This document shows positions 1,322-10,400 of a stretch of DNA of 64,000 bases, in pieces. Numbering within the stretch: the first letter of the stretch is position 1; each line of letters starts with the position of its first letter. The notes beneath the pieces are model-generated. The model did not search any database, had not been told where the DNA came from, and saw nothing but the letters and a program-made list of their open reading frames with translations. Made by a program: the position numbers and the translations under genes. Where the stretch lies: positions 1 through 64,000 of the forward strand of contig NZ_RQJO01000011.1 in NCBI RefSeq assembly GCF_003858635.1, given 5' to 3'. The stretch comes from Larkinella rosea. GTDB taxonomy: Bacteria; Bacteroidota; Bacteroidia; Cytophagales; Spirosomataceae.

Positions 1322-1816
1322 CTATTCATCCGGACCATTAAAATGCGGGTCGGAGTTGTCCGACTCGGGCGGGGTATCCCAATCGTCGGGTTGGTGGTCC
1401 GGTTCCGGGGAAGGGTGATGAACGTCCAGGTCATCCTGAACCGCCACTTCGATGTGTGAGGTCGGATCGTCCGAAGCGGTTTTCGGTTCGGAGGTTACAA
1501 AAACTTCCGGTTCGTCGTGCTCCGCGTGCGGATGCGCTGGGTGTTCCGAGGAACTGTGCGATGGCTCAACCGCTTCCACCCAGAGATCGTCAAATTCGAG
1601 CAATCCCTGCTCTTCGAGCTGGCCGTGCATTTCCTGAAAATATTCCACCGCCACCGGTACCTGCAGCCCTTCCCAGATCACCCGGTGTTCGTCGACGGCC
1701 TGTTGCAGGTCGGGATCGGCGGCTAGTTCTGCTTCCAACTGGCGTTGTTCGTCGGGCGAGAGCGTGCCTTCCAGGTAAGCTTCGATTCGGTCGTATTCGG
1801 ATTCAGTTAAAGCCAT
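1322..1816 (-). CDS. acidic anti-sigma-factor-like protein
   Basis: 164 aa. The first ~50 residues (YDRIEAYLEGTLSPDEQ, then ELAADPDLQQAVDEHR) match the helical start of bacterial anti-sigma factors, where a short helix is followed by a helix ending in DPxL. The usual HxxxCxxC zinc motif and transmembrane helix are absent. Residues ~75-164 are a low-complexity tail of Asp, Glu, His, Pro and Ser. It starts 7 bp after the stop of the ECF sigma gene, so the two are almost certainly co-translated. The inferred role is a soluble partner or inhibitor of that sigma factor. The tail could bind metal or be cut by the caspase-like protease of the same operon. Confidence 0.6.
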   Translation of the reverse strand: MALTESEYDRIEAYLEGTLSPDEQRQLEAELAADPDLQQAVDEHRVIWEGLQVPVAVEYFQEMHGQLEEQGLLEFDDLWVEAVEPSHSSSEHPAHPHAEHDEPEVFVTSEPKTASDDPTSHIEVAVQDDLDVHHPSPEPDHQPDDWDTPPESDNSDPHFNGPDE

Positions 1817-1823
1817 GATCGTA

Positions 1824-2411
1824 CTAGTTTAATGGGCCTCTGCCCCAGAACAGCTTCTTCAGTTGTTCGGTACATTCATACCGCTTGGTGCGGGCGGTTT
1901 GGGGCGTGTAATTCATGATGTGGGCAATCTCGACGAGCGGTTTTCCCTGAATATAAAACAGGTCGATCACGCGCTGGCAATTCTCGCCCATCCGCTGGAG
2001 CAACTGGTTGACTTTGCTGACATTTTCGGAAAAAGTCATCAGTGCATCCGTCGGGTCGTCGTCAGATCGGTCAACGTACACATCCAGCGGTTGCGTATGG
2101 CGGTGACGGGCACTTTGCAATTCGTTGATCCACTTGCGTTTGCAAAATTCAAAAAGAACACTTTTCAATCGGGCCGAGGGCGACAACTGATAGCGTCCGG
2201 ATTTTACGGCAACGTAGAACTCCGCCATCCCTTGTTGAAACGCGTCCTGCGCGTGTTCCATCGATCCCTGATTGGTTTGCACATAATGGGCGAACGAGCG
2301 GAATGTTTGGGCGTAGAGACAAGCGTAGGCCCGGTCGTCGCTGTTTTTTAAACCGGCAAAAAGCAGTTCATCGGTGGGAAAGGCACTGCACGGATTGGGT
2401 GGCAGAATCAT
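1824..2411 (-). CDS. ECF-type RNA polymerase sigma factor
   Basis: 195 aa. Region 2 is visible around residues 25-95 (YACLYAQTFRSFAHYVQ, then QDAFQQGMAEFYVAV and LKSVLFEFCKRKWINEL). Region 4 lies around 135-190 (NCQRVIDLFYIQGKPLVEIA, then YTPQTARTKRYECTEQLKKL), the helix-turn-helix that binds the -35 element. The length fits ECF factors without extra domains. It is the seventh gene of the kinase/phosphatase/caspase run, 47 bp after the caspase gene, and is followed directly by an anti-sigma-like gene. It is therefore the probable transcriptional output of that pathway; its targets are unknown. Confidence 0.85.
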   Translation of the reverse strand: MILPPNPCSAFPTDELLFAGLKNSDDRAYACLYAQTFRSFAHYVQTNQGSMEHAQDAFQQGMAEFYVAVKSGRYQLSPSARLKSVLFEFCKRKWINELQSARHRHTQPLDVYVDRSDDDPTDALMTFSENVSKVNQLLQRMGENCQRVIDLFYIQGKPLVEIAHIMNYTPQTARTKRYECTEQLKKLFWGRGPLN

Positions 2412-2458
2412 AATCGTTGATTAACAAAAATCTTCTCAATATACAGGGAACAAACGCC

Positions 2459-3211
2459 TTATAAAATCGTGACGGGGGTTGAATCGGAAAATTTGCCGTA
2501 GATGATCGGAATTTGCTGGTTATGCGTGGTTTGCCGAACCCCGTTGCTGACGTATTTAAAATGTTCGCGGATGGTCACGATCCGGTTTCGGTCACTATCG
2601 GCGGCTCCCTCGGCTCCTTTCACCAGATAATACGTGAAAGCACCCTGCCGCAACGAATTATACTCGCCGGATTTCTGACTCGAGCGCGACGACGCCATGA
2701 CGACGACGTTGAGCGACGGATCATTCAGTTGCTTGTAGGTTTGGTGAGAAGCCGTGCGGGCGTTGGACTTCCGCCTGATGCTGCCCGAATGGCAGGCATC
2801 CGCCCAGACAATCTTGGTGTTGGCCGCCGACTGCCGGAAGGCGGTTTTTACTTCGGCGTGCAGGAGTTCCTGGCCATCGGCGGTGAAAAATGTGCCATCG
2901 GCGCCGTGCCCGGAAAAGAAAATAATCACCCGGTCATTGCGTTGGGCGCGCTGAAATAGCTGGAGTGCCCGCATGATGTTGGCGTGGCTGGCTTGTTGAT
3001 TCACCAACGTCACGATATTCGCGGCCGGAACGCTGCCGCCTTTCGGGCCGCGCAAAAACCGGGTGACCAGCGTGGCGTCGTCATCGGCATACTGCAGGTC
3101 GTTGACCGTGCCCACGTAATCAGCCACCCCGATGACGATGGCGTAGGTTTGCTGGGCAAATGTATTAATAATTGTCACCAGCGTCAGAATAGTTGCTAAA
3201 TACCATTTCAT
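2459..3211 (-). CDS. secreted caspase-like (C14) cysteine peptidase
   Basis: 250 aa. A signal peptide (residues 1-19, ending TFAQ) is followed by a caspase p20-like fold: YAIVIGVADY as first strand, FFSGHGADG with the catalytic His at 102, and VWADACHSGS with the catalytic Cys at 140. The His-Gly and Asp-Ala-Cys-His-Ser-Gly signatures are those of bacterial metacaspase/orthocaspase proteins, which cut after basic residues. There is no extra C-terminal domain. The start codon overlaps the stop of the PP2C gene by 4 bp (ATGA), so protease and phosphatase are translationally coupled. The signal peptide implies a periplasmic or envelope site, on the other side of the membrane from the kinase domain. 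Confidence 0.88.
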   Translation of the reverse strand: MKWYLATILTLVTIINTFAQQTYAIVIGVADYVGTVNDLQYADDDATLVTRFLRGPKGGSVPAANIVTLVNQQASHANIMRALQLFQRAQRNDRVIIFFSGHGADGTFFTADGQELLHAEVKTAFRQSAANTKIVWADACHSGSIRRKSNARTASHQTYKQLNDPSLNVVVMASSRSSQKSGEYNSLRQGAFTYYLVKGAEGAADSDRNRIVTIREHFKYVSNGVRQTTHNQQIPIIYGKFSDSTPVTIL

Positions 3212-4821
3212 GAGCGTATCTTATTGAAGATGAATATTTTAGTTGGTTGGAAGGAGGCCGCTATTGGGTCGATTTTTAAAACGGCCGTTTGCTGGCCGGG
3301 CGTCGATTCAACGGGTTGTGCAACCTGCCCGGATTTATTGATGTAGTATTCCTGGCCGTCTTTGGAAACCAGCGCCCGGCCTTCGGCAAAATTGGCAGCT
3401 TTGTCAAACTGGCATCGGATTTTTATTTGGCCATCCAGATTGATGTAGCCCCATTTGTTGTCTTTCCGTACGGTAATGAAATCATCGCTGGCTTTTCCGA
3501 TTTCATCGTACGACTTGGTCTTACGTTTTTTCTCCCCCTTTTCGTCTACCAGAATCCAGCCGTCTTCGGTCTGTTTTTTATAAAGCTTTCCGGTGATTAG
3601 AACCGGTGCTTTTCCGGCACTGATGACCGCCTGACTAACACTTTCGGTGTCATCCAGCGGCTGATCCGGTTTGGTATTCGGCGGCAAAACATCAATTTTC
3701 GGGTTCTGTCTCGTTGGTTTGTGTGCGGTTCCTGCCCCCTGAACCTGACCCGTTTCGTCGGATTTCGCCCATTTGTAAGTCATCACGCCACCCAGTGTCA
3801 ATACGGCGGCAATCAGGGCGACGGTCAGCAGGCGGGGAAGTGAATCGGAATCCGGAAAAAGGTTGTCTTTCGGGGCTGGTTGTTCAACGCTGCGCTTGGG
3901 AACGGGATTCGGTCGCGGTTCCGGAATAATACGCGGAGGAACTTTATTTTCGACCGGAGCCGGGGTGGTCCGGACGGAATCAACCGCCACCACGGCCACG
4001 GTTTCATCGGCCACGGTTTCCGGATGGGCATAAACCGGAGCGGAAAACCGGTATTCGTCGGAGACTTCGCCACTAACGGTTTCAATCTGAACCAGATACG
4101 CCGAGAAGTTATCCTTGGTTTTTCCGGTACAGCAATCGATCAGCGTTTGTTTTTTCTGTTCATTGGATGCCGCTGTGCCCAATACATTCTCCAGCAGTTC
4201 ATCGCTGACCCGTTCCAGAACGCCGTCGGTACAAAGGAAAAAATAGTCGCCGGGCCGAACGTCATTGAGCACCTGAACGTCGATTTTGACCGGTTTGGTA
4301 TTGCCCTGAATGGCTCGTTCGATGACGTTCCGCTGGGGATGTTCACGCGCTTCTTCGCGGGAAATGACTCCGGCTTTCAGCAATTGATTCACCAGCGAAT
4401 GATCTTCGGTTCGCCAGACCACCTTGCCATCGCGGAGGTGGTAGACCCGGCTGTCGCCAATGTGAGCCACGCTGGCTCCGGCTTCGTGCAGATAGAGCAT
4501 GGTCAGGGTGGTCGCCATTCCGTTGCCTTCCGGGTGCCACGCCAGGTAGTCGTCGAACCGAGCCTGGACGTGATCCAGCGCCGTTTGCAGATAAACCGGC
4601 GTGGCCACCGGTTCCGGATTCCGGACGAAGTAGTCGTTAAAACCCTCAACGGCGATGTGGCTGGCGATTTCGCCCCGGGCGGCTCCGCCCACGCCGTCGC
4701 ACACCATAAACCACGGCTGTTGCTGCGTAGCGTCGTCGGCCTGTGGGAAAATAGTATCTTCGTTATTGCTGCGTCCACCCTGAAAGGAATACCCCAAAGG
4801 CGGGTGAATGGTTAATTTCAT
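3208..4821 (-). CDS. PP2C-type Ser/Thr phosphatase with transmembrane helix and WG repeats
   Basis: 537 aa. The PP2C domain occupies ~1-250 with the metal-binding signatures SNNED (near 20), VCDGVGG, MATTLTMLYL, HIGDSRVYHLRDG, FLCTDGVLE and KDNFSAYLV. A Pro-rich linker leads to one membrane helix (~330-350, LLTVALIAAVLTLGGVMTYKW). Outside it lie WG/KWG-type repeats (KWGYINLDGQIKI, EYYINKSGQ). The topology suggests a cytoplasmic phosphatase with an external sensor. It probably reverses phosphorylation by the kinase at 8035-9897. It lies 20 bp downstream of an FHA gene and overlaps the caspase gene by 4 bp. Confidence 0.9.
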   Translation of the reverse strand: MKLTIHPPLGYSFQGGRSNNEDTIFPQADDATQQQPWFMVCDGVGGAARGEIASHIAVEGFNDYFVRNPEPVATPVYLQTALDHVQARFDDYLAWHPEGNGMATTLTMLYLHEAGASVAHIGDSRVYHLRDGKVVWRTEDHSLVNQLLKAGVISREEAREHPQRNVIERAIQGNTKPVKIDVQVLNDVRPGDYFFLCTDGVLERVSDELLENVLGTAASNEQKKQTLIDCCTGKTKDNFSAYLVQIETVSGEVSDEYRFSAPVYAHPETVADETVAVVAVDSVRTTPAPVENKVPPRIIPEPRPNPVPKRSVEQPAPKDNLFPDSDSLPRLLTVALIAAVLTLGGVMTYKWAKSDETGQVQGAGTAHKPTRQNPKIDVLPPNTKPDQPLDDTESVSQAVISAGKAPVLITGKLYKKQTEDGWILVDEKGEKKRKTKSYDEIGKASDDFITVRKDNKWGYINLDGQIKIRCQFDKAANFAEGRALVSKDGQEYYINKSGQVAQPVESTPGQQTAVLKIDPIAASFQPTKIFIFNKIRS

Positions 4822-4841
4822 GGGAAGTGGGCCGGTTGGTA

Positions 4842-5540
4842 CTAGTTGAAGGATAAAATGGTGCGGGTATAGTCAGTTCCCTCCACCTGACGGTGCGCTT
4901 TCTGGAGGGACTCGGACATCTGATACGTTTTCAGCACCACTTTGGTTTCGCCGATCTGAACGGTGTCACCGTCTTTCAGGTAGATTTGTTCCGAAGGATG
5001 CAGCGCCGGTTCCTGGCCATTCAGGAAAGTGCCGTTCTGGCTTTTTTTCCGGGTGCCGTCGGGCTGGCGGGCACCGTCCTGAAGCACGTAATCCACCTGC
5101 CCCATTTTGTTGATCTTTACTTCAATCGTGCAATGCGGGCGGCTCATGTACCGATCCTCCGTTTGAATCATCAGATCAGACGGTGATTTCCGGGAAATCC
5201 GCCCGACTGTGTTGAGCCCTTTTTTCAGATTGAACGTCTGCGACGCCGTTTTTTCATCATGAACGATCAGCCAGCCGAGCACTTCCGGCAGCGCCGGTTT
5301 GGTCTTTCCCTCGCCTTGTATCCACGTTTTTTCGTTGTCGTTCTCCTTGATCAGCGTTTCTTCATCCGAAGCCGCCGGGACCGGTTTGTCGGGTGCCGAC
5401 AAATTCGCGGGTAAAGGATTTAAGTAACCACATTTCGGGCATTTGACTTCTTTGGCCTGCGTGGGGACTTTGACCCGAACGGTAAGACCAGCGCGGCAGG
5501 CCGGATTTCCGCAAGTGAGAGTGAGTTCCTGAACGTTCAT
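4842..5540 (-). CDS. zinc-ribbon and FHA-domain phosphothreonine-binding protein
   Basis: 232 aa with the chosen ATG (MNVQELTLTC); an in-frame start 21 bp upstream is possible. An N-terminal zinc ribbon (CGNPAC ... VKCPKCGYL) is followed by an acidic linker and a C-terminal FHA domain (~85-200): GLNTVGRISR, then MSRPHCTIEV carrying the conserved Arg/Ser/His, then NGTFLNGQ. FHA domains bind phosphothreonine, so this is a likely adaptor recruiting substrates phosphorylated by the operon kinase. No membrane segment. It lies between the calcium-loop protein and the phosphatase. Confidence 0.88.
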   Translation of the reverse strand: MNVQELTLTCGNPACRAGLTVRVKVPTQAKEVKCPKCGYLNPLPANLSAPDKPVPAASDEETLIKENDNEKTWIQGEGKTKPALPEVLGWLIVHDEKTASQTFNLKKGLNTVGRISRKSPSDLMIQTEDRYMSRPHCTIEVKINKMGQVDYVLQDGARQPDGTRKKSQNGTFLNGQEPALHPSEQIYLKDGDTVQIGETKVVLKTYQMSESLQKAHRQVEGTDYTRTILSFN

Positions 5541-5590
5541 GATGATTTCGGCGAAAAGCAATTTACGGAGTGAATACGAACAAAACCGGC

Positions 5591-7057
5591 TTACGCGACC
5601 CAGTCGCTGACGTCGGCGTTGTTATCATAATCGTTGCTGGCCATCCGATTTTCATCGGACGAAAAACTATCCATCGTTGGTGCTTCAATCGGGTGTTCCA
5701 GGGGTGCAGCGGACAACACTTCGCCGGTGTTCATATCAACCTGAGCAACCGTGTCGAACTGGTGATCCCCGTCTGCATCGAAAACGGTTTTTCCATCTTC
5801 CAGCATCACAATATCTACATAGCCATCGTGGTTAGAATCGCCCATTGTAACCTCGTGTCCATCTTGATTGACGGTTACAACTTCCACTTCCGGAGTCGTG
5901 TCGTTCGCGGGCGTCGTCTGATTTTGAGAGGTGCCAAAGTCGCTCAGCGCGGGTGCATTGTAGACTTCCGTCATCGGAGCCGAAGCAATCACTTCGTGCG
6001 AGTTGGGATCCAACTCAATCCGGGTTTCCAAAATACCGTCGTTGTCAGTATCCACCGCGCCGGAAGTTCCATCGACAATTACCACTTCGGCATCGCCATC
6101 GTGGTCCGTGTCACCGGCGACAATCGTGTGTCCCTGGTATTCAGTCGTGACAACCACCGGTTTGGTTTCCGGCGTAGTTTCGTTCGAAACCGGTCGGTTG
6201 TTGAAAGAATCCAGATCGCTCAATTTCGGTGCTGCGAAAGTGGTTGCCAGTGGAGCTTCGGCCGTAATTGTATGCGTTTCTGGATCCAGCTCCACGCGGG
6301 TGTCCATGATGCCGTCGTTGTCGCGGTCAATGATGCCGGTTTTTCCGTCGCTGAAAACAATCGCTTCCGCATCGCCATCGTGGTCTCCATCGCCCAGTGC
6401 CACGGTTTGTCCGTTGTATTCACCGATTTTGACGTCAGCCCTGCTGGTATTGTCGCTCGCCGAATGAGTTGATTCCGACCTGGTTTCGTCATTCAGTGAA
6501 GCGGCATAGTCTTCCCGCTGTTTTTCGCTCATGGCTTCCCATTCTTCTTTGTAGTAGGTGTTGTAGAGGTGATCGTTCCATTCAAAATAACCACCGGGGC
6601 CAACTTCTGCGCGGGCGGTTTTGAAAGCGTCTTCGAAAGACATGTCGTCGGTAACGTGGGTAGCCACCATGGGTTCGTGAGGAGTAGGCGTTTCGCTGGT
6701 TTCTGAAGGAGTGGTGTGGGAGGAGGTGGCATTTGGCGCTACTTCCGGGCGGGGACTGGTGCTGACGTGCGTGCTGTCGGAAGGCGTTTCGGTCGACGGT
6801 TTGGGTTCTTCCACTTTGGTAGGCGTTTCCGCAGCCGGTTTGGTTTCCGGGTGATTGTTGTTGGCTTTGCCATCTTCTTCGCTCATACCCCAGGCCAGGG
6901 CGCTGCCACCGGCGATGGCGGCTGCCCCGCCCAAACCGGCGAAGAGGACGGCTTTTTGTTTGCCGGTCAGTTTTTTACCACCGGTTTTGGCTACTGGCGT
7001 GGCCTGATCGTTTCCTGTTTGCGTTGGCTGATCGAAGGAGTCGGAAGTCGGGAGCAT
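5591..7057 (-). CDS. membrane-anchored acidic protein with three paired calcium-loop-like repeats
   Basis: 488 aa. A short basic N-terminus precedes one membrane helix (~35-58, AVLFAGLGGAAAIAGGSALAW) and a Thr/Glu/Pro-rich stretch. Three repeats of ~90 residues follow, each with two loops of DxDxDG type: GDGDHDGDAEA with DRDNDGIMDTR, GDTDHDGDAEV with DTDNDGILETR, and GDSNHDGYVDI with DADGDHQFDT. Each unit ends with a motif like APKLSDL(D/G). Such loops bind Ca2+ in EF-hand, dockerin and thrombospondin type 3 proteins; calcium binding here is inferred. It sits between the two FHA genes. The Thr-rich region would suit phosphorylation by the operon kinase. No named family recognised. Confidence 0.75.
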   Translation of the reverse strand: MLPTSDSFDQPTQTGNDQATPVAKTGGKKLTGKQKAVLFAGLGGAAAIAGGSALAWGMSEEDGKANNNHPETKPAAETPTKVEEPKPSTETPSDSTHVSTSPRPEVAPNATSSHTTPSETSETPTPHEPMVATHVTDDMSFEDAFKTARAEVGPGGYFEWNDHLYNTYYKEEWEAMSEKQREDYAASLNDETRSESTHSASDNTSRADVKIGEYNGQTVALGDGDHDGDAEAIVFSDGKTGIIDRDNDGIMDTRVELDPETHTITAEAPLATTFAAPKLSDLDSFNNRPVSNETTPETKPVVVTTEYQGHTIVAGDTDHDGDAEVVIVDGTSGAVDTDNDGILETRIELDPNSHEVIASAPMTEVYNAPALSDFGTSQNQTTPANDTTPEVEVVTVNQDGHEVTMGDSNHDGYVDIVMLEDGKTVFDADGDHQFDTVAQVDMNTGEVLSAAPLEHPIEAPTMDSFSSDENRMASNDYDNNADVSDWVA

Positions 7058-7182
7058 GGTCGGAATGATTTAGTATGTGAGCTGTTTTTTGAATCGCCTT
7101 GTTGCGGTTTCTACTTCTTTATCCGGGCCACTTTCGGAATGTCAGTGCCTGAGTGAAAAATTTTTCAAACTTTTTTCGGTGA

Positions 7183-7890
7183 TCAGACCCACAGGCATTT
7201 GCAATACCGGCATTGCCGTTGCCGCACCAGTTCGCCGTAGGGAACATAGCCCAAAAACTGCTGACAGGCGGGGTTCGGGCATTTGTAATCGCGCCGGAAC
7301 GCTTCGTCCAGCACCTGAACCCGTTCGCTGGTATTGAAAACATAGGCGTCGATCAAAGCCGCCAGTGGAAAACCGGCATACGGCACCCAGCCGATTGCCA
7401 CCCGAATCCAGGCTTTTTTCTTCGGATCGCCGGTCAGGATTTCCTGTTTCGCCATCACATACTGTTCATAATGCCAGCTCAGTCGGGACAATTCTTCGGC
7501 AAAATTGCCGCCTGGGGGCGTCAGTTGCGGGATGGGTCCGGGTGTTAGCCCCGGTATTGGTCCCGCCCCCGGTTTGGGGATCGGCGGAGGGGGAGGTGGT
7601 TGAAGCTGGGGGCGGACCTTCTCAAAAAGCGTTTTCACGTCCAGTTTGGCGATGGTTCCCAGCACCACGTTGCTGCTCGGCGTAATCATTTTCTGCACAA
7701 TCCGACGCCCATCGACCTCGGTTCCGTACGTGGAGTCGAGGTCTTCAAGCAAACCCAGAAAATCGGTATACAACGTCAGTCGGGCGTGGTACCGACTGAT
7801 GCCCGGTTTTTCGAGCACCAGGTCATTGTCTTTATTTTTTCCGATCCGGATCACGCGCAAAGCGGTCGGCCGGGAAGCATCGGGTGTCAT
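7183..7890 (-). CDS. FHA-domain protein with C-terminal zinc ribbon
   Basis: 235 aa. N-terminal FHA domain (~12-80): RVIRIGKNKDNDLVLEKPG, ISRYHARL with conserved Ser/His, and STYGTEVDG. A Pro-rich linker with PPPPPPIPKPGAGPIPG follows. Next is a mostly helical region with a hydrophobic stretch (VAIGWVPYAGFPLAALIDAYVF) and a terminal zinc ribbon (CPNPAC ... CRYCKC). The order is the reverse of the other FHA protein, where the ribbon comes first. It is probably a second phosphothreonine reader for the kinase encoded upstream. The 144-bp gap to the kinase gene holds an inverted-repeat element. Confidence 0.85.
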   Translation of the reverse strand: MTPDASRPTALRVIRIGKNKDNDLVLEKPGISRYHARLTLYTDFLGLLEDLDSTYGTEVDGRRIVQKMITPSSNVVLGTIAKLDVKTLFEKVRPQLQPPPPPPIPKPGAGPIPGLTPGPIPQLTPPGGNFAEELSRLSWHYEQYVMAKQEILTGDPKKKAWIRVAIGWVPYAGFPLAALIDAYVFNTSERVQVLDEAFRRDYKCPNPACQQFLGYVPYGELVRQRQCRYCKCLWV

Positions 7891-7928
7891 GGTGTTCAGG
7901 TTTGAGGGTTTAAGGTTTGATAGTTTAC

Positions 7929-8031
7929 GGTTTACGGTATTCAGTTTACGGTGACTGACGCATGCTTACTGCCGCGTTCTTGTTGGAGCATGCGCCAGCC
8001 ACCGTAAACCGAATACTGAAAACCGTAAACC
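7929..8031. repeat. large imperfect inverted repeat built of GTTTACGG units
   Basis: Left arm core 7944-7965 and right arm core 7988-8009 pair at 20 of 22 positions (GTTTACGGTGACTGACGCAT against the complement of GCGCCAGCCACCGTAAAC). The flanks continue with further GGTTTACGG copies paired to CCGTAAACC. The resulting hairpin lies between the kinase stop and the next gene of the operon. It could be an interspersed palindromic element that stabilises or attenuates the operon transcript. There is no T-run, so a simple terminator is unlikely. Confidence 0.7.
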
Positions 8032-8034
8032 GAT

Positions 8035-9897
8035 TTACCAGCGTATCGAATACTGGTTCAACCGTTTCTGGGCGTCAGCGGAACCCAACCGGGCGGCTCG
8101 TTTGTAATAATCGACAGCGATTGTCCAGTTTTGGGTGACACCCTGCCCGTAATCGTGCAGGTAGCCCAGATTATAGAGTGAATAGATGTTGTTCTGCTCA
8201 GCCGCTTTCAGGTACCAGAACCGGGCCGTTGCGTAATCGGCGCCATTGCCGCCGATATACCCCTTGTAATAAAGCGCACCAATTGAATTCTGTGCTTCCG
8301 CATAGTTCTGGCTGGCGGCTTTCCGGTACCAATATTCGGCCTGCGAATAGTCACTGCTAACGCCGTTGCCATACTGGTAACACAATCCCAGTTTATACTG
8401 GGCACCGGCATCACCACCTTCGGCACCTTCGCGGTAATAACGGACCGCTTCGTAATAGTTACGGTTCACGCCGTTGCCGTTGTAATACAGTTCGCCCAGA
8501 TTGTATTTTGCCTTTGCGATACCGCCCATTGCGGCTTTTTCGTAATAATCCCGGGCTTTCGGAAGATCGACGGCCACGCCCATTCCAAATTGATACATCG
8601 CACCGATGTTGCTCAAACTCAGCAGGTAACCCTGGTCGGCCGCTTTCCAGTACCAGCGCAGTGCTTCGCTGTAATCCCGTTGCGTACCCGTGCCAGTATT
8701 GTACATGTAACCCAGATGATGAATCGCTTCGGGCGTCATGAAGGGCGAATCCCGGTGTTTGTAAAGCAGAAAAAACGCTTCGGTATATTGCCCTTTGTTC
8801 GCCAGTTCCACGCCTTTCGTAATGTCGCCTTTGACAACATACGTCCAGAATGCGAACAGCCCACCACCCAGCACCAGCAGCACAACGAAGCCGATGATCA
8901 CATTGCGGAGCGTGTGGGATTTCTTTTCGGCCTGTTTCTTCGAACCATCGTCCGGTTTTTTCGGGTCAAGAATTACCTCTTTCACCTCTTCCGGTTTCGC
9001 CATCTCTTTTTTTCGAACATCTTCCGGCAGATTAAACAGATGCTGGTTCGGATTCCGGATCAGCGTTTTGTCGTCATCATTGCCCACAAAAACCGGTTGC
9101 GGTTCTGCCAGAGCCTCTCTGAAGGCCGCACAACTCTGAAAACGATCGGCGGGATTTTTGCTGGTCGCTTTCTGAATGGCCGCGTTGACGCGCTGCGAAA
9201 CACCCGGAATAAACGGAAGCGGTTTTTTAACAATCTCGGCCTGAACCGTGTAGGCCGAACCATACGAATCGTCATACGGTTTTTTGCCCGTCAACAGGGC
9301 GAAGAGCGTCACGCCCAGCGAATAAATATCGGTGCGGTAATCGATGGATTTGGGTGTGGTAATCTGCTCCGGACTCATGTACTGGGGTGAGCCGATGTTG
9401 GTGTGGGTTTCGGTCAGTTCCAGGTTGGCGTTGACGATCTTGGCAATGCCGAAGTCCATCACCTTGATCGAACCGTTGCGGGTCAGGAACAGATTCGTGG
9501 GCTTGATGTCGCGATGGACGTAATTCTTCTGGTGTACATAGCCCACCGCATCCAGAATGTCGTTGAACCAGTTGAGGGCCTGCTTTTCGGAAACCGGCCC
9601 GTGTTCGATCAGATACCGCCCCAGGTCTTCACCTTCCAGATACTCCATAATGATTGCCATCGTGCTCGCATCTTCGTGGTAATCAATTACCTGGCGAATA
9701 TGCGGATGTTCCAGACTGACCATCATTTTGGCTTCCAGCCGGAAACGCTCGGCCAGTTTTTCCTTGAGTTCCATCCCCGGCTTCAGTACTTTGATCGCGA
9801 AGCGTTTTCCGAGCGCATTCTCGGCGTACCAGACGGTGGCCATTCCGCCTTCACCTAATTTCCGGCTTAATGTGTAGGTAAGAAGTTGCGTTTGCAT
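8035..9897 (-). CDS. transmembrane Ser/Thr protein kinase with Sel1-like repeats
   Basis: 620 aa. Hanks-type kinase domain at 1-265: Gly loop GEGGMATVW (15-23), Lys36 in FAIKVLK, HRDIKPTN with catalytic Asp130, DFG at 148-150, and SPEQ. A linker with charged repeats leads to one membrane helix (~332-354). The outer part (~395-610) holds about six Sel1/TPR-like units of the form GxxYxxGxGVxxDYxxAxxWYxKAA. It is a PknB-like receptor kinase whose Sel1 solenoid would sense or dock a partner. It is the first gene of the minus-strand run and presumably phosphorylates proteins read by the two FHA adaptors and reset by the PP2C enzyme. Confidence 0.92.
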   Translation of the reverse strand: MQTQLLTYTLSRKLGEGGMATVWYAENALGKRFAIKVLKPGMELKEKLAERFRLEAKMMVSLEHPHIRQVIDYHEDASTMAIIMEYLEGEDLGRYLIEHGPVSEKQALNWFNDILDAVGYVHQKNYVHRDIKPTNLFLTRNGSIKVMDFGIAKIVNANLELTETHTNIGSPQYMSPEQITTPKSIDYRTDIYSLGVTLFALLTGKKPYDDSYGSAYTVQAEIVKKPLPFIPGVSQRVNAAIQKATSKNPADRFQSCAAFREALAEPQPVFVGNDDDKTLIRNPNQHLFNLPEDVRKKEMAKPEEVKEVILDPKKPDDGSKKQAEKKSHTLRNVIIGFVVLLVLGGGLFAFWTYVVKGDITKGVELANKGQYTEAFFLLYKHRDSPFMTPEAIHHLGYMYNTGTGTQRDYSEALRWYWKAADQGYLLSLSNIGAMYQFGMGVAVDLPKARDYYEKAAMGGIAKAKYNLGELYYNGNGVNRNYYEAVRYYREGAEGGDAGAQYKLGLCYQYGNGVSSDYSQAEYWYRKAASQNYAEAQNSIGALYYKGYIGGNGADYATARFWYLKAAEQNNIYSLYNLGYLHDYGQGVTQNWTIAVDYYKRAARLGSADAQKRLNQYSIRW

Positions 9898-10400
9898 AAA
9901 ACTCTGAAGTAAAGGTTATGAAGGCTGCGAAAGAGCCGCCCCGTTCGTTGTCCGTGATTTCATCAATCTTACCGGGTTAATGTCAGCGGTTTTTCAGGAA
10001 AAGCGTATAAGTATTTTTTCGACTTCTTGATTATCAATCAGATGTGGTTGGGAAAAGGTGAATTTTCTCTCAATTTAAGAGAATTCAGGCGTAAAATAAG
10101 GCGTTGTCAAATGGGAAAACCGGCCTATCGAAACCCGCCCAATTTCGATGCTTATCCCTAACTATTCAATAGTTACTACTAACGATTTTAGGTTACGGGA
10201 GCGGTTTCAGAAAACTGCCCGTTGGCAGATTGGGAAAGATCGGGAGGAACTTATCGCAGCAATTGTTAACTTGCTATAGTAAGACAAAAGAAGAAAGAGA
10301 ATAGAGGAACGACTATTGACTTTAACATGGATGAGTTAATCTCGCTTCTTTTCTCTTTTGTCGGATTGTCTGCTGTATAAGAATTTAAGCCGTATTCATT
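9898..10400. other. intergenic region between the divergent kinase operon and priA
   Basis: About 500 bp without a convincing gene. The left half should hold the promoter of the kinase operon, but I could not fix a clear TANNTTTG box. The right part carries one copy of a dispersed repeat with GACAAAAG (10283-10290) and CTTTTGTC (10355-10362) at its ends. priA starts at a GTG at 10401 with no obvious ribosome binding site, usual for this phylum. Confidence 0.6.
10271..10362. repeat. dispersed intergenic repeat, copy 1
   Basis: 10320-10352 matches 24329-24361 at 30 of 33 positions (shared core GTTAATCTCGCTTCTTTT). Both copies also carry GAGAATAGA upstream of the core and a TTGCTATAG box, placed on the left here (10271-10279) and on the right in copy 2. 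Outer arms GACAAAAG/CTTTTGTC can pair. No coding capacity. It may be a small non-autonomous mobile or palindromic element. Confidence 0.6.

Follow-up and report, generated by a model that had tools for sequence, protein, structure and literature searches.

An eight-gene kinase, FHA, phosphatase, caspase and sigma factor set of Larkinella rosea as a local elaboration of a wider Bacteroidota cassette

Why would a bacterium keep genes for a Ser/Thr kinase, two FHA proteins, a PP2C phosphatase, a caspase-like protease and a sigma factor side by side? This question is raised by eight consecutive open reading frames (ORFs) on the minus strand of Larkinella rosea contig NZ_RQJO01000011.1, which occupy positions 1322-9897 of the window, that is, of the whole stretch of 64,000 nucleotides that we analyzed, in a genome of 8.17 Mb. 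We call the genes, in order, K, F1, A, F2, P, C, S, and Z. A first-pass annotation of this DNA had proposed that the set could couple phosphorylation to a protease and to a transcription program. Its observation is right and understates the matter, because a wider cassette stands behind the eight genes. Judged by sequence, the eight genes form a locally elaborated version of a Bacteroidota cassette with a core of F1, A, F2, and P, often accompanied by C and a kinase, which extends to gut Bacteroidales. The explanation that we favor, at a probability of roughly 45%, is that the cassette forms a membrane-spanning phospho-switch, in which A would link kinase/FHA/PP2C signaling in the cytosol to a caspase in the periplasm and a dedicated sigma factor would provide the output.

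All eight ORFs were recovered where they had been placed, and the kinase, FHA, PP2C, and caspase assignments hold, each with a Pfam match above cut-off: Pkinase for K (179.7 bits, with six Sel1 stretches at 164.2 bits), FHA for F1 and F2 (46.1 and 41.5 bits), PP2C_2 for P (52.6 bits, with WG repeats, WG_beta_rep, at 53.4 bits), and Peptidase_C14 for C (71.7 bits; cut-off, 21.4), which is a member of that family. The sigma factor assignment holds through TIGR02937, which S passes with 60.5 bits (cut-off, 42.9) as a sigma-70 family protein of the extracytoplasmic function (ECF) type; S lies below the Pfam sigma cut-offs (Sigma70_ECF, 16.9 of 21.1). Both FHA/zinc-ribbon readers have the FHA domain, and the zinc-ribbon matches of F2 are below cut-off; A, described as a membrane-anchored acidic repeat protein, has one hydrophobic segment and Asp-rich repeats that stay under the FG-GAP_3 cut-off (21.8 bits; cut-off, 26.9); and Z, described as having an anti-sigma-like start, is acidic and has sub-threshold anti-sigma matches only (NF052375, 24.4 bits; cut-off, 100). 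The intergenic gaps from K to Z are 144, 125, 50, 20, -4, 47, and 7 nt, P and C thus overlapping by 4 nt. All eight genes are under purifying selection, with ratios of nonsynonymous to synonymous substitution rates of 0.046-0.210 against L043 (L. terrae) and 0.085-0.263 against L044 (L. punicea).

A caspase search over 222 genomes of the family, with a cut-off of E 1e-20, gave matches in 60. The locus set consisted of the best 64 matches (E 2e-41 or better, in ORFs of 253-541 amino acids [aa]), which are the window and 63 relatives; 16 weaker matches in ORFs of 729-1,288 aa were excluded. A scan of genome contigs with the caspase alone as query gave no match. The complete order K-F1-A-F2-P-C-S-Z occurs in seven of the 64 loci, namely the window, L043, and L044 from Larkinella and L045-L048 from a genus (g33) that includes Spirosoma panaciterrae (L047/L113); in L047 and L048 a second kinase follows the first. 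Conservation of the entire eight-gene order was therefore confirmed for these seven loci only, and four of the nine genomes from the genus of the window have no caspase match at E 1e-20, one of which (G006) has an A-domain match. The proposal that the genes form a recurring set fared better, as kinase, FHA, PP2C, and caspase genes adjoin one another across Bacteroidota. F1, F2, and P are all present in each of the 52 caspase-selected Spirosomaceae loci that have A and enough flank, with C as a separate gene in 50 and fused to PP2C in two. The L. rosea genome itself carries a second, divergent copy (L069) with F1, A, F2, P, C, and a kinase with a weak TPR match, continued by a weak-TPR protein, a LamG/PKD protein, and then a sigma/anti-sigma pair on the opposite strand.

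Scanning named genomes with the A domain yielded at least 78 loci, or 68 after removal of 10 that repeated family loci; here and below, the results on named genomes and on loci selected by A are those among the matches listed. Half of the 68 (34) had enough flank, the other half being incomplete, and F1 was found in 50, F2 in 59, P in 55, and C in 40. Most come from Prevotella, Bacteroides, Muribaculaceae, Alistipes, and other Bacteroidales, and further ones from Spirosoma, Larkinella, Runella, Persicitalea, one Saprospiraceae, and one contig labeled Clostridium. Across 126 loci, named genomes included, the order is F1-A-F2-P-C in 53 and F1-A-C-F2-P in 26, the latter being the usual order outside Spirosomaceae. 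Ten repeated loci were omitted from the presence and order counts and from the counts of A hydrophobic segments, and 12 from the phosphosite counts; the alignments took part of the available rows (A3, 46 of 87; A4, 33 of 51; A5, 81 of 86; A7, 59 of 111). One Prevotella locus (L121:6873-9251) has an Asp-rich membrane-type protein (within ORF 6873-8150) and a BspA-type leucine-rich repeat protein between F1 and A.

The adaptor A carries a conserved domain of ~58 residues, detected in 58 of the 64 loci, that has only sub-threshold matches in Pfam. Against DUF7167 the domain of the window scores 18.4 bits (Pfam cut-off, 24.4), and 14 of 81 members match that family at E 0.01 or better. An AlphaFold2 model of whole A gave a predicted local distance difference test (pLDDT) score of 95-98 at residues 131-180 and was poor overall (mean pLDDT, 67.0; predicted template modeling score [pTM], 0.32); the domain alone gave 86-91 (mean, 79.0; pTM, 0.59). 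Neither model had a Foldseek match in PDB at E 0.001, VIA-align gave best Z scores of 4.4 (TarM) and 2.5 for whole A and the domain alone, which decide nothing on the fold, and no solved relative was found by sequence below E 0.47. In PHROGs, five of the 81 domain members matched one family (best E, 0.0014). A 5-kb record labeled Bacteriophage sp. (MT838606.1, 1791-1982) also encodes an A domain, with 46.9% identity, and is perhaps a mislabeled Bacteroidales contig. A hydrophobic segment stands ahead of the domain in 131 of 134 A proteins, and the stretch just before that segment has a net positive charge in 112 of the 134.

The domain was found in 65 of the 222 family genomes and in five of 395 genomes drawn across the phylum, four of the five from this family, so the system is patchy. 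One copy of the cassette lies on a Runella rosea plasmid; in that record (L207, NZ_CP030851.1, 1-1457) the annotation places a PKD protein and a VWA protein directly before it. Patchiness and a plasmid copy are what a conflict or cell-death system might show, one in which an invader or damage is sensed by the kinase, FHA, and PP2C proteins and a caspase in the periplasm destroys or disables the cell. PADLOC also gives weak matches, to PDC-M21C for P (37.1 bits) and to caspase for C (53 bits), that point the same way. Against this, the caspase N terminus is of the export type, the eight proteins have no NTPase, vWA, or nuclease match in Pfam, and the PADLOC matches of the kinase are those of any such kinase. 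The flanks of the seven full sets, moreover, are partly common to relatives (one gene family for the window and L044; several for L045/L046 and for L047/L048), so mobility is not supported for these seven. We regard a conflict role as unlikely.

All 102 distinct caspases proved on alignment to have both catalytic residues, His and Cys, which ruled out the dead caspases suggested by a motif search (9 and 16 of 112 without the motifs). A hydrophobic N-terminal stretch precedes the domain in 98 of the 102 when judged with an 11-residue window, and a stricter segment test gave hydrophobic N termini in 55 of 112. The "secreted" protease of the first-pass annotation is thus firm in its caspase domain; this N terminus is the evidence for secretion, and C is probably exported. 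Of the 62 loci with a separate C, 57 have it no more than 2 kb from P, and in two Runella loci PP2C and caspase form one ORF (L062:6375-7943, minus strand; L082:11774-13396, plus strand). The fusion junction keeps the moderately hydrophobic former N terminus of the caspase (17-residue mean, 1.3-1.5), and such a stretch between the fused parts would place PP2C inside and the caspase outside. A plain envelope-homeostasis operon, with the phosphorylation genes acting on one set of substrates and the caspase on an unrelated one, is disfavored by the fusions and by the proximity of C to P. The absence of C from part of the A-selected loci and the variable kinase type would fit such an operon, which we consider improbable. 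C does not belong with the EACC1-associated caspases, as NF047832 gave 80.7 bits (cut-off, 140) and no NTPase or vWA partner was matched among the eight.

The FHA Ser and His and the four Cys of F1 are kept at 90% or more in 59 aligned proteins; a Ser-Arg-x-His pattern was met by 39 of 112 F1 proteins, and the alignment nonetheless keeps Ser and His. In F2, the motif [SC][RK]xH is present in 115 of 122 proteins, and the TagH model gave 28.6 bits (cut-off, 120.25). K is not a PASTA kinase of the PknB/Stk1 type, having Sel1 repeats, no PASTA match, and 285.9 bits with NF033483 (cut-off, 450). A SLATT-like effector with two transmembrane segments was considered in F1 and dropped, the match being below cut-off (22.2 bits, L121) and found in one of 59 F1 proteins.

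What ties the sigma factor to the cassette is its distribution. A profile (A6) built from 11 cassette sigma factors, which it necessarily recovers, gave 43 matches over the 222 family genomes at E 5.1e-45 or better, followed by a gap and then five at 2e-33 to 1e-31. For 40 of the 43, a cassette caspase is found no farther than 9 kb away; of the other three, two sit on separate contigs in fragmented assemblies (G169, G206) and one is elsewhere in a cassette genome (G118), and every genome with one of the 43 also has a cassette caspase. S belongs to a sigma family found almost only beside cassettes, in support of the first-pass interpretation. In a tree of 40 of the 44 cassette sigma factors, four short rows being omitted, 32 form one group (support, 100/99) that contains none of the 21 other sigma factors of the L. 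rosea genome, and the seven in-operon ones form a subgroup (100/99). Of 44 loci, 27 have the sigma gene downstream on the opposite strand; in the others it shares the strand and stands upstream (10 loci) or downstream (seven loci). Ahead of the distal sigma genes of L058, L060, L061, L066, and L072 (partly also L055, L064, and others) we noticed by eye an element of about ACTTACCTTTT and then CCTATTCATCAATAATTG, ~60-100 nt before the sigma start, a possible promoter or operator.

Region 2.2 of the seven in-operon sigma factors reads HAQD in five and QAQD in two, and that of 25 sister sigma factors reads DAED in 23 and DAVD or DAQD in the others. The first Asp of the DxxD motif is therefore His or Gln in all seven and kept in 25 of 25 sisters, a pattern that, by analogy with EcfP and EcfK, could mean direct kinase control, the loss of this Asp making S dependent on phosphorylation; EcfK gives the precedent (PMC13147305). 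The second Asp is kept, however, and the motif has no Thr. Asp also stands at the first place in only seven of the 21 other sigma factors of the genome, so its loss in S is not diagnostic, and sigma factor and kinase genes are also co-oriented where the sigma factor has DAED or is of another kind (e.g., L100 and L092). Direct control of this kind seems to us rather improbable; it is compatible with the phospho-switch, and the caspase branch may then be separate.

The neighbor of S differs among lineages. The Z proteins of the window and L043-L046 contain 24-29% Asp plus Glu and, beyond residue 60, lack a hydrophobic segment in all five cases (highest mean over 19 residues, -0.08 to 0.48), so that the Z of the window does not qualify as a membrane anti-sigma factor and, with the other four, should be soluble and cytosolic. 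A hydrophobic segment and a TPR-like part are retained by the homologues in L047 and L048, whose first ~100 residues, including an EPEV stretch, are by eye shared with Z. Among relatives not of the window type, the 19-residue mean is at least 1.5 in 23 of the 33 rows after S and 1.09-1.46 in nine more; in this survey, six of 44 rows had no neighbor ORF and L055 apparently took the wrong neighbor. Z is best read, from these comparisons, as a reduced membrane anti-sigma factor. The first-pass annotation had suggested that the caspase cleaves the acidic anti-sigma-like protein and so frees the sigma factor. In most relatives the protein after S has a hydrophobic segment, so its outer part could be reached there by an exported caspase, and cleavage is possible in this ancestral, membrane-bound form. 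In the window and L043-L046, Z lacks the segment while C keeps its hydrophobic N terminus, which makes cleavage of Z by C unlikely here, and as a general explanation we think it very improbable.

Starting from the gene set, its recurrence, the layout of domains and hydrophobic segments, the catalytic residues, and the link with one sigma family, the phospho-switch might operate as follows; topology, stimulus, phosphorylation partners, caspase substrates, and each signaling step are what we infer. The membrane kinase K would sense a cue from the envelope or outside through its Sel1 repeats and phosphorylate cytosolic threonines, including sites in the inner tail of A and the F2 linker. The FHA domains of F1 and F2 would read these phosphosites, and P would reset them. 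Since A would cross the inner membrane, a change in its inner tail could reach the domain and the Asp-rich repeats on the outer side, and from this outer part the signal may pass to the exported caspase, the executioner. S, held by Z, would be the transcriptional output; with Z soluble in this lineage, S would probably be released inside the cell by the kinase/FHA arm rather than by cleavage outside. In the A tails of the named genomes the motif [DE]T[IVL] is found in 27 of 68 (shuffles: mean, 4.3; maximum, 18), an enrichment that we treat as a lead and not as a finding.

Several observations weigh against this switch. The same motif is found in none of 53 Spirosomaceae A tails (shuffles, 2.6) and in 13 of the 60 excisable F2 linkers (of 121), within the shuffle range (mean, 5.4; maximum, 16). 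The A domain was not detectable in six of 64 loci (L049, L087, L091, L093, L099, and L100), some of which are on cut contigs and others of which may carry a diverged adaptor. Since the family loci were chosen by C, its near-universal presence in Spirosomaceae is no evidence; C occurs in 22 of the 34 A-selected loci with enough flank, and it is missing from nine loci with the arrangement F1-A-F2-P, some of them on truncated contigs, so C is not an obligatory member. The A-selected loci outside Spirosomaceae gave no S, eight of 40 cassette sigma factors fall in another tree group, the profile that identifies the kinase is a generic one, and lineages differ in kinase type and position. Promoter-like and terminator-like patterns are near chance (14 and 16 against 9.4 and 15.8 in shuffles), and the Bacteroidetes promoter pattern has one match against 1.8 expected, which lies outside the operon.

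More broadly, this may be an undescribed, patchy, sometimes plasmid-borne system in which a transmembrane adaptor with a signature domain lets cytosolic Hanks-kinase/FHA/PP2C signaling gate an exported caspase, together with a dedicated sigma family; in the Larkinella/Spirosoma branch, where the sigma gene lies in the operon, the sigma factor would have lost an Asp that contacts RNA polymerase, and five of the seven loci would afterward have lost the membrane anti-sigma factor too, a passage from outside sensing to kinase control. We offer this fuller account as a doubtful possibility. If it is true, bacteria of the gut (Prevotella, Bacteroides, and Muribaculaceae) and environmental Cytophagales use a Hanks-type kinase circuit to control a caspase on the far side of a membrane, a new signature domain is defined, and a compact genetic system becomes available for studying the targets of bacterial caspases and the reason for their export. 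It would also mark a lineage in which the mode of sigma control seems to have changed, with an intermediate still visible in Spirosoma panaciterrae. The first-pass interpretation is partly supported.

Features of the eight-gene locus, with positions in the window
Feature	Position	Strand	Description	Basis
K	8035-9897	-	Ser/Thr kinase domain at residues 8-258, hydrophobic segment at ~333-351, six Sel1 repeats	Pfam and hydropathy
F1	7183-7890	-	FHA, Pro-rich linker, C-terminal four-Cys zinc ribbon	Pfam and alignment
A	5591-7057	-	N-terminal tail with Thr, hydrophobic segment at ~36-54, conserved domain at ~131-188, Asp-rich beta repeats	
Signature domain of A	6497-6667	-	Placed by domain search	
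F2	4842-5540 (ATG; listed ORF start, TTG at 5561)	-	N-terminal putative zinc ribbon, linker with Thr (DEETLI, EKTWIQ), FHA	
P	3208-4821	-	PP2C phosphatase, hydrophobic segment at ~331-349, C-terminal WG repeats	Pfam and hydropathy
C	2459-3211	-	Caspase-like protease (SGHG ... DACHSG), export-type N terminus	Pfam and alignment
S	1824-2411	-	ECF sigma factor; region 2.2 is HAQD, DAED in most of the sister group	TIGR02937, tree, profile search, alignment
Z	1322-1816	-	Predicted soluble acidic anti-sigma-like protein; shortened relative of membrane anti-sigma factors with TPR	
Candidate promoter region before K	9898-9992	-	Contains GCTGACAT; alike in five aligned full-set loci (window, L043-L046)	

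In the candidate promoter region, L047 and L048 differ by eye from the five similar loci. Upstream of the operon lies a divergent ORF of 834 aa, which we take to be priA. Downstream, past a gap, a small protein with a Kunitz/BPTI domain is encoded on the minus strand (670-939; 41.4 bits; cut-off, 21), a fold that is uncommon in bacteria.

In the open-access literature, outside which most subscription papers lie, we recognized no paper describing this gene set, in agreement with the earlier statement that no described system has exactly this composition. The analogies first drawn to TerY-P and to type VI regulation fell away. TerY-P consists of the TerY vWA protein, a PP2C, and a kinase; our set resembles it in PP2C, kinase, and zinc ribbons and differs in that none of its eight proteins has a vWA match in Pfam at E 0.1, a VWA protein being annotated beside the Runella rosea plasmid copy. 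As for the threonine phosphorylation pathway of the type VI secretion system, VipB (PF05943) was absent from the one genome searched, that of L. rosea, with a positive Escherichia coli control. The FHA switches GarA and OdhI have a Thr-containing segment ahead of the FHA domain, as does F2, which unlike them has an N-terminal zinc ribbon and reaches 18.8 bits with the OdhI model (cut-off, 200).

Bacterial caspases within regulated multigene sets are known from conflict systems (PMC7159879, PMC8195603); our set differs in having no MoxR, vWA, or STAND NTPase match among the eight proteins and an export-type caspase N terminus. The KKP modules (PMC11341870) combine opposing Ser/Thr kinases and PP2C, and in them one kinase is joined to a cold-shock domain and another to FHA. 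The cassette shares with them an opposing kinase and PP2C, an FHA domain, and clustered genes; K has Sel1 repeats and no cold-shock or FHA match, and so is not a KKP kinase, and the accessible part of that source names no caspase, A-type adaptor, or sigma factor. In the ECF43 pairs PknT-EcfP and PknS-EcfK (PMC13147305), a Hanks kinase and an ECF sigma factor with an altered DxxD motif are encoded together. ECF43 proteins replace DxxD with uncharged residues and a conserved Thr; the HAQD or QAQD of all seven in-operon sigma factors keeps the second Asp and has no Thr, which sets S outside that group. Like ECF43, then, this locus joins a kinase to an ECF sigma factor with a changed DxxD motif, and unlike ECF43 it retains one Asp, lacks the Thr, and adds FHA, PP2C, and caspase genes.

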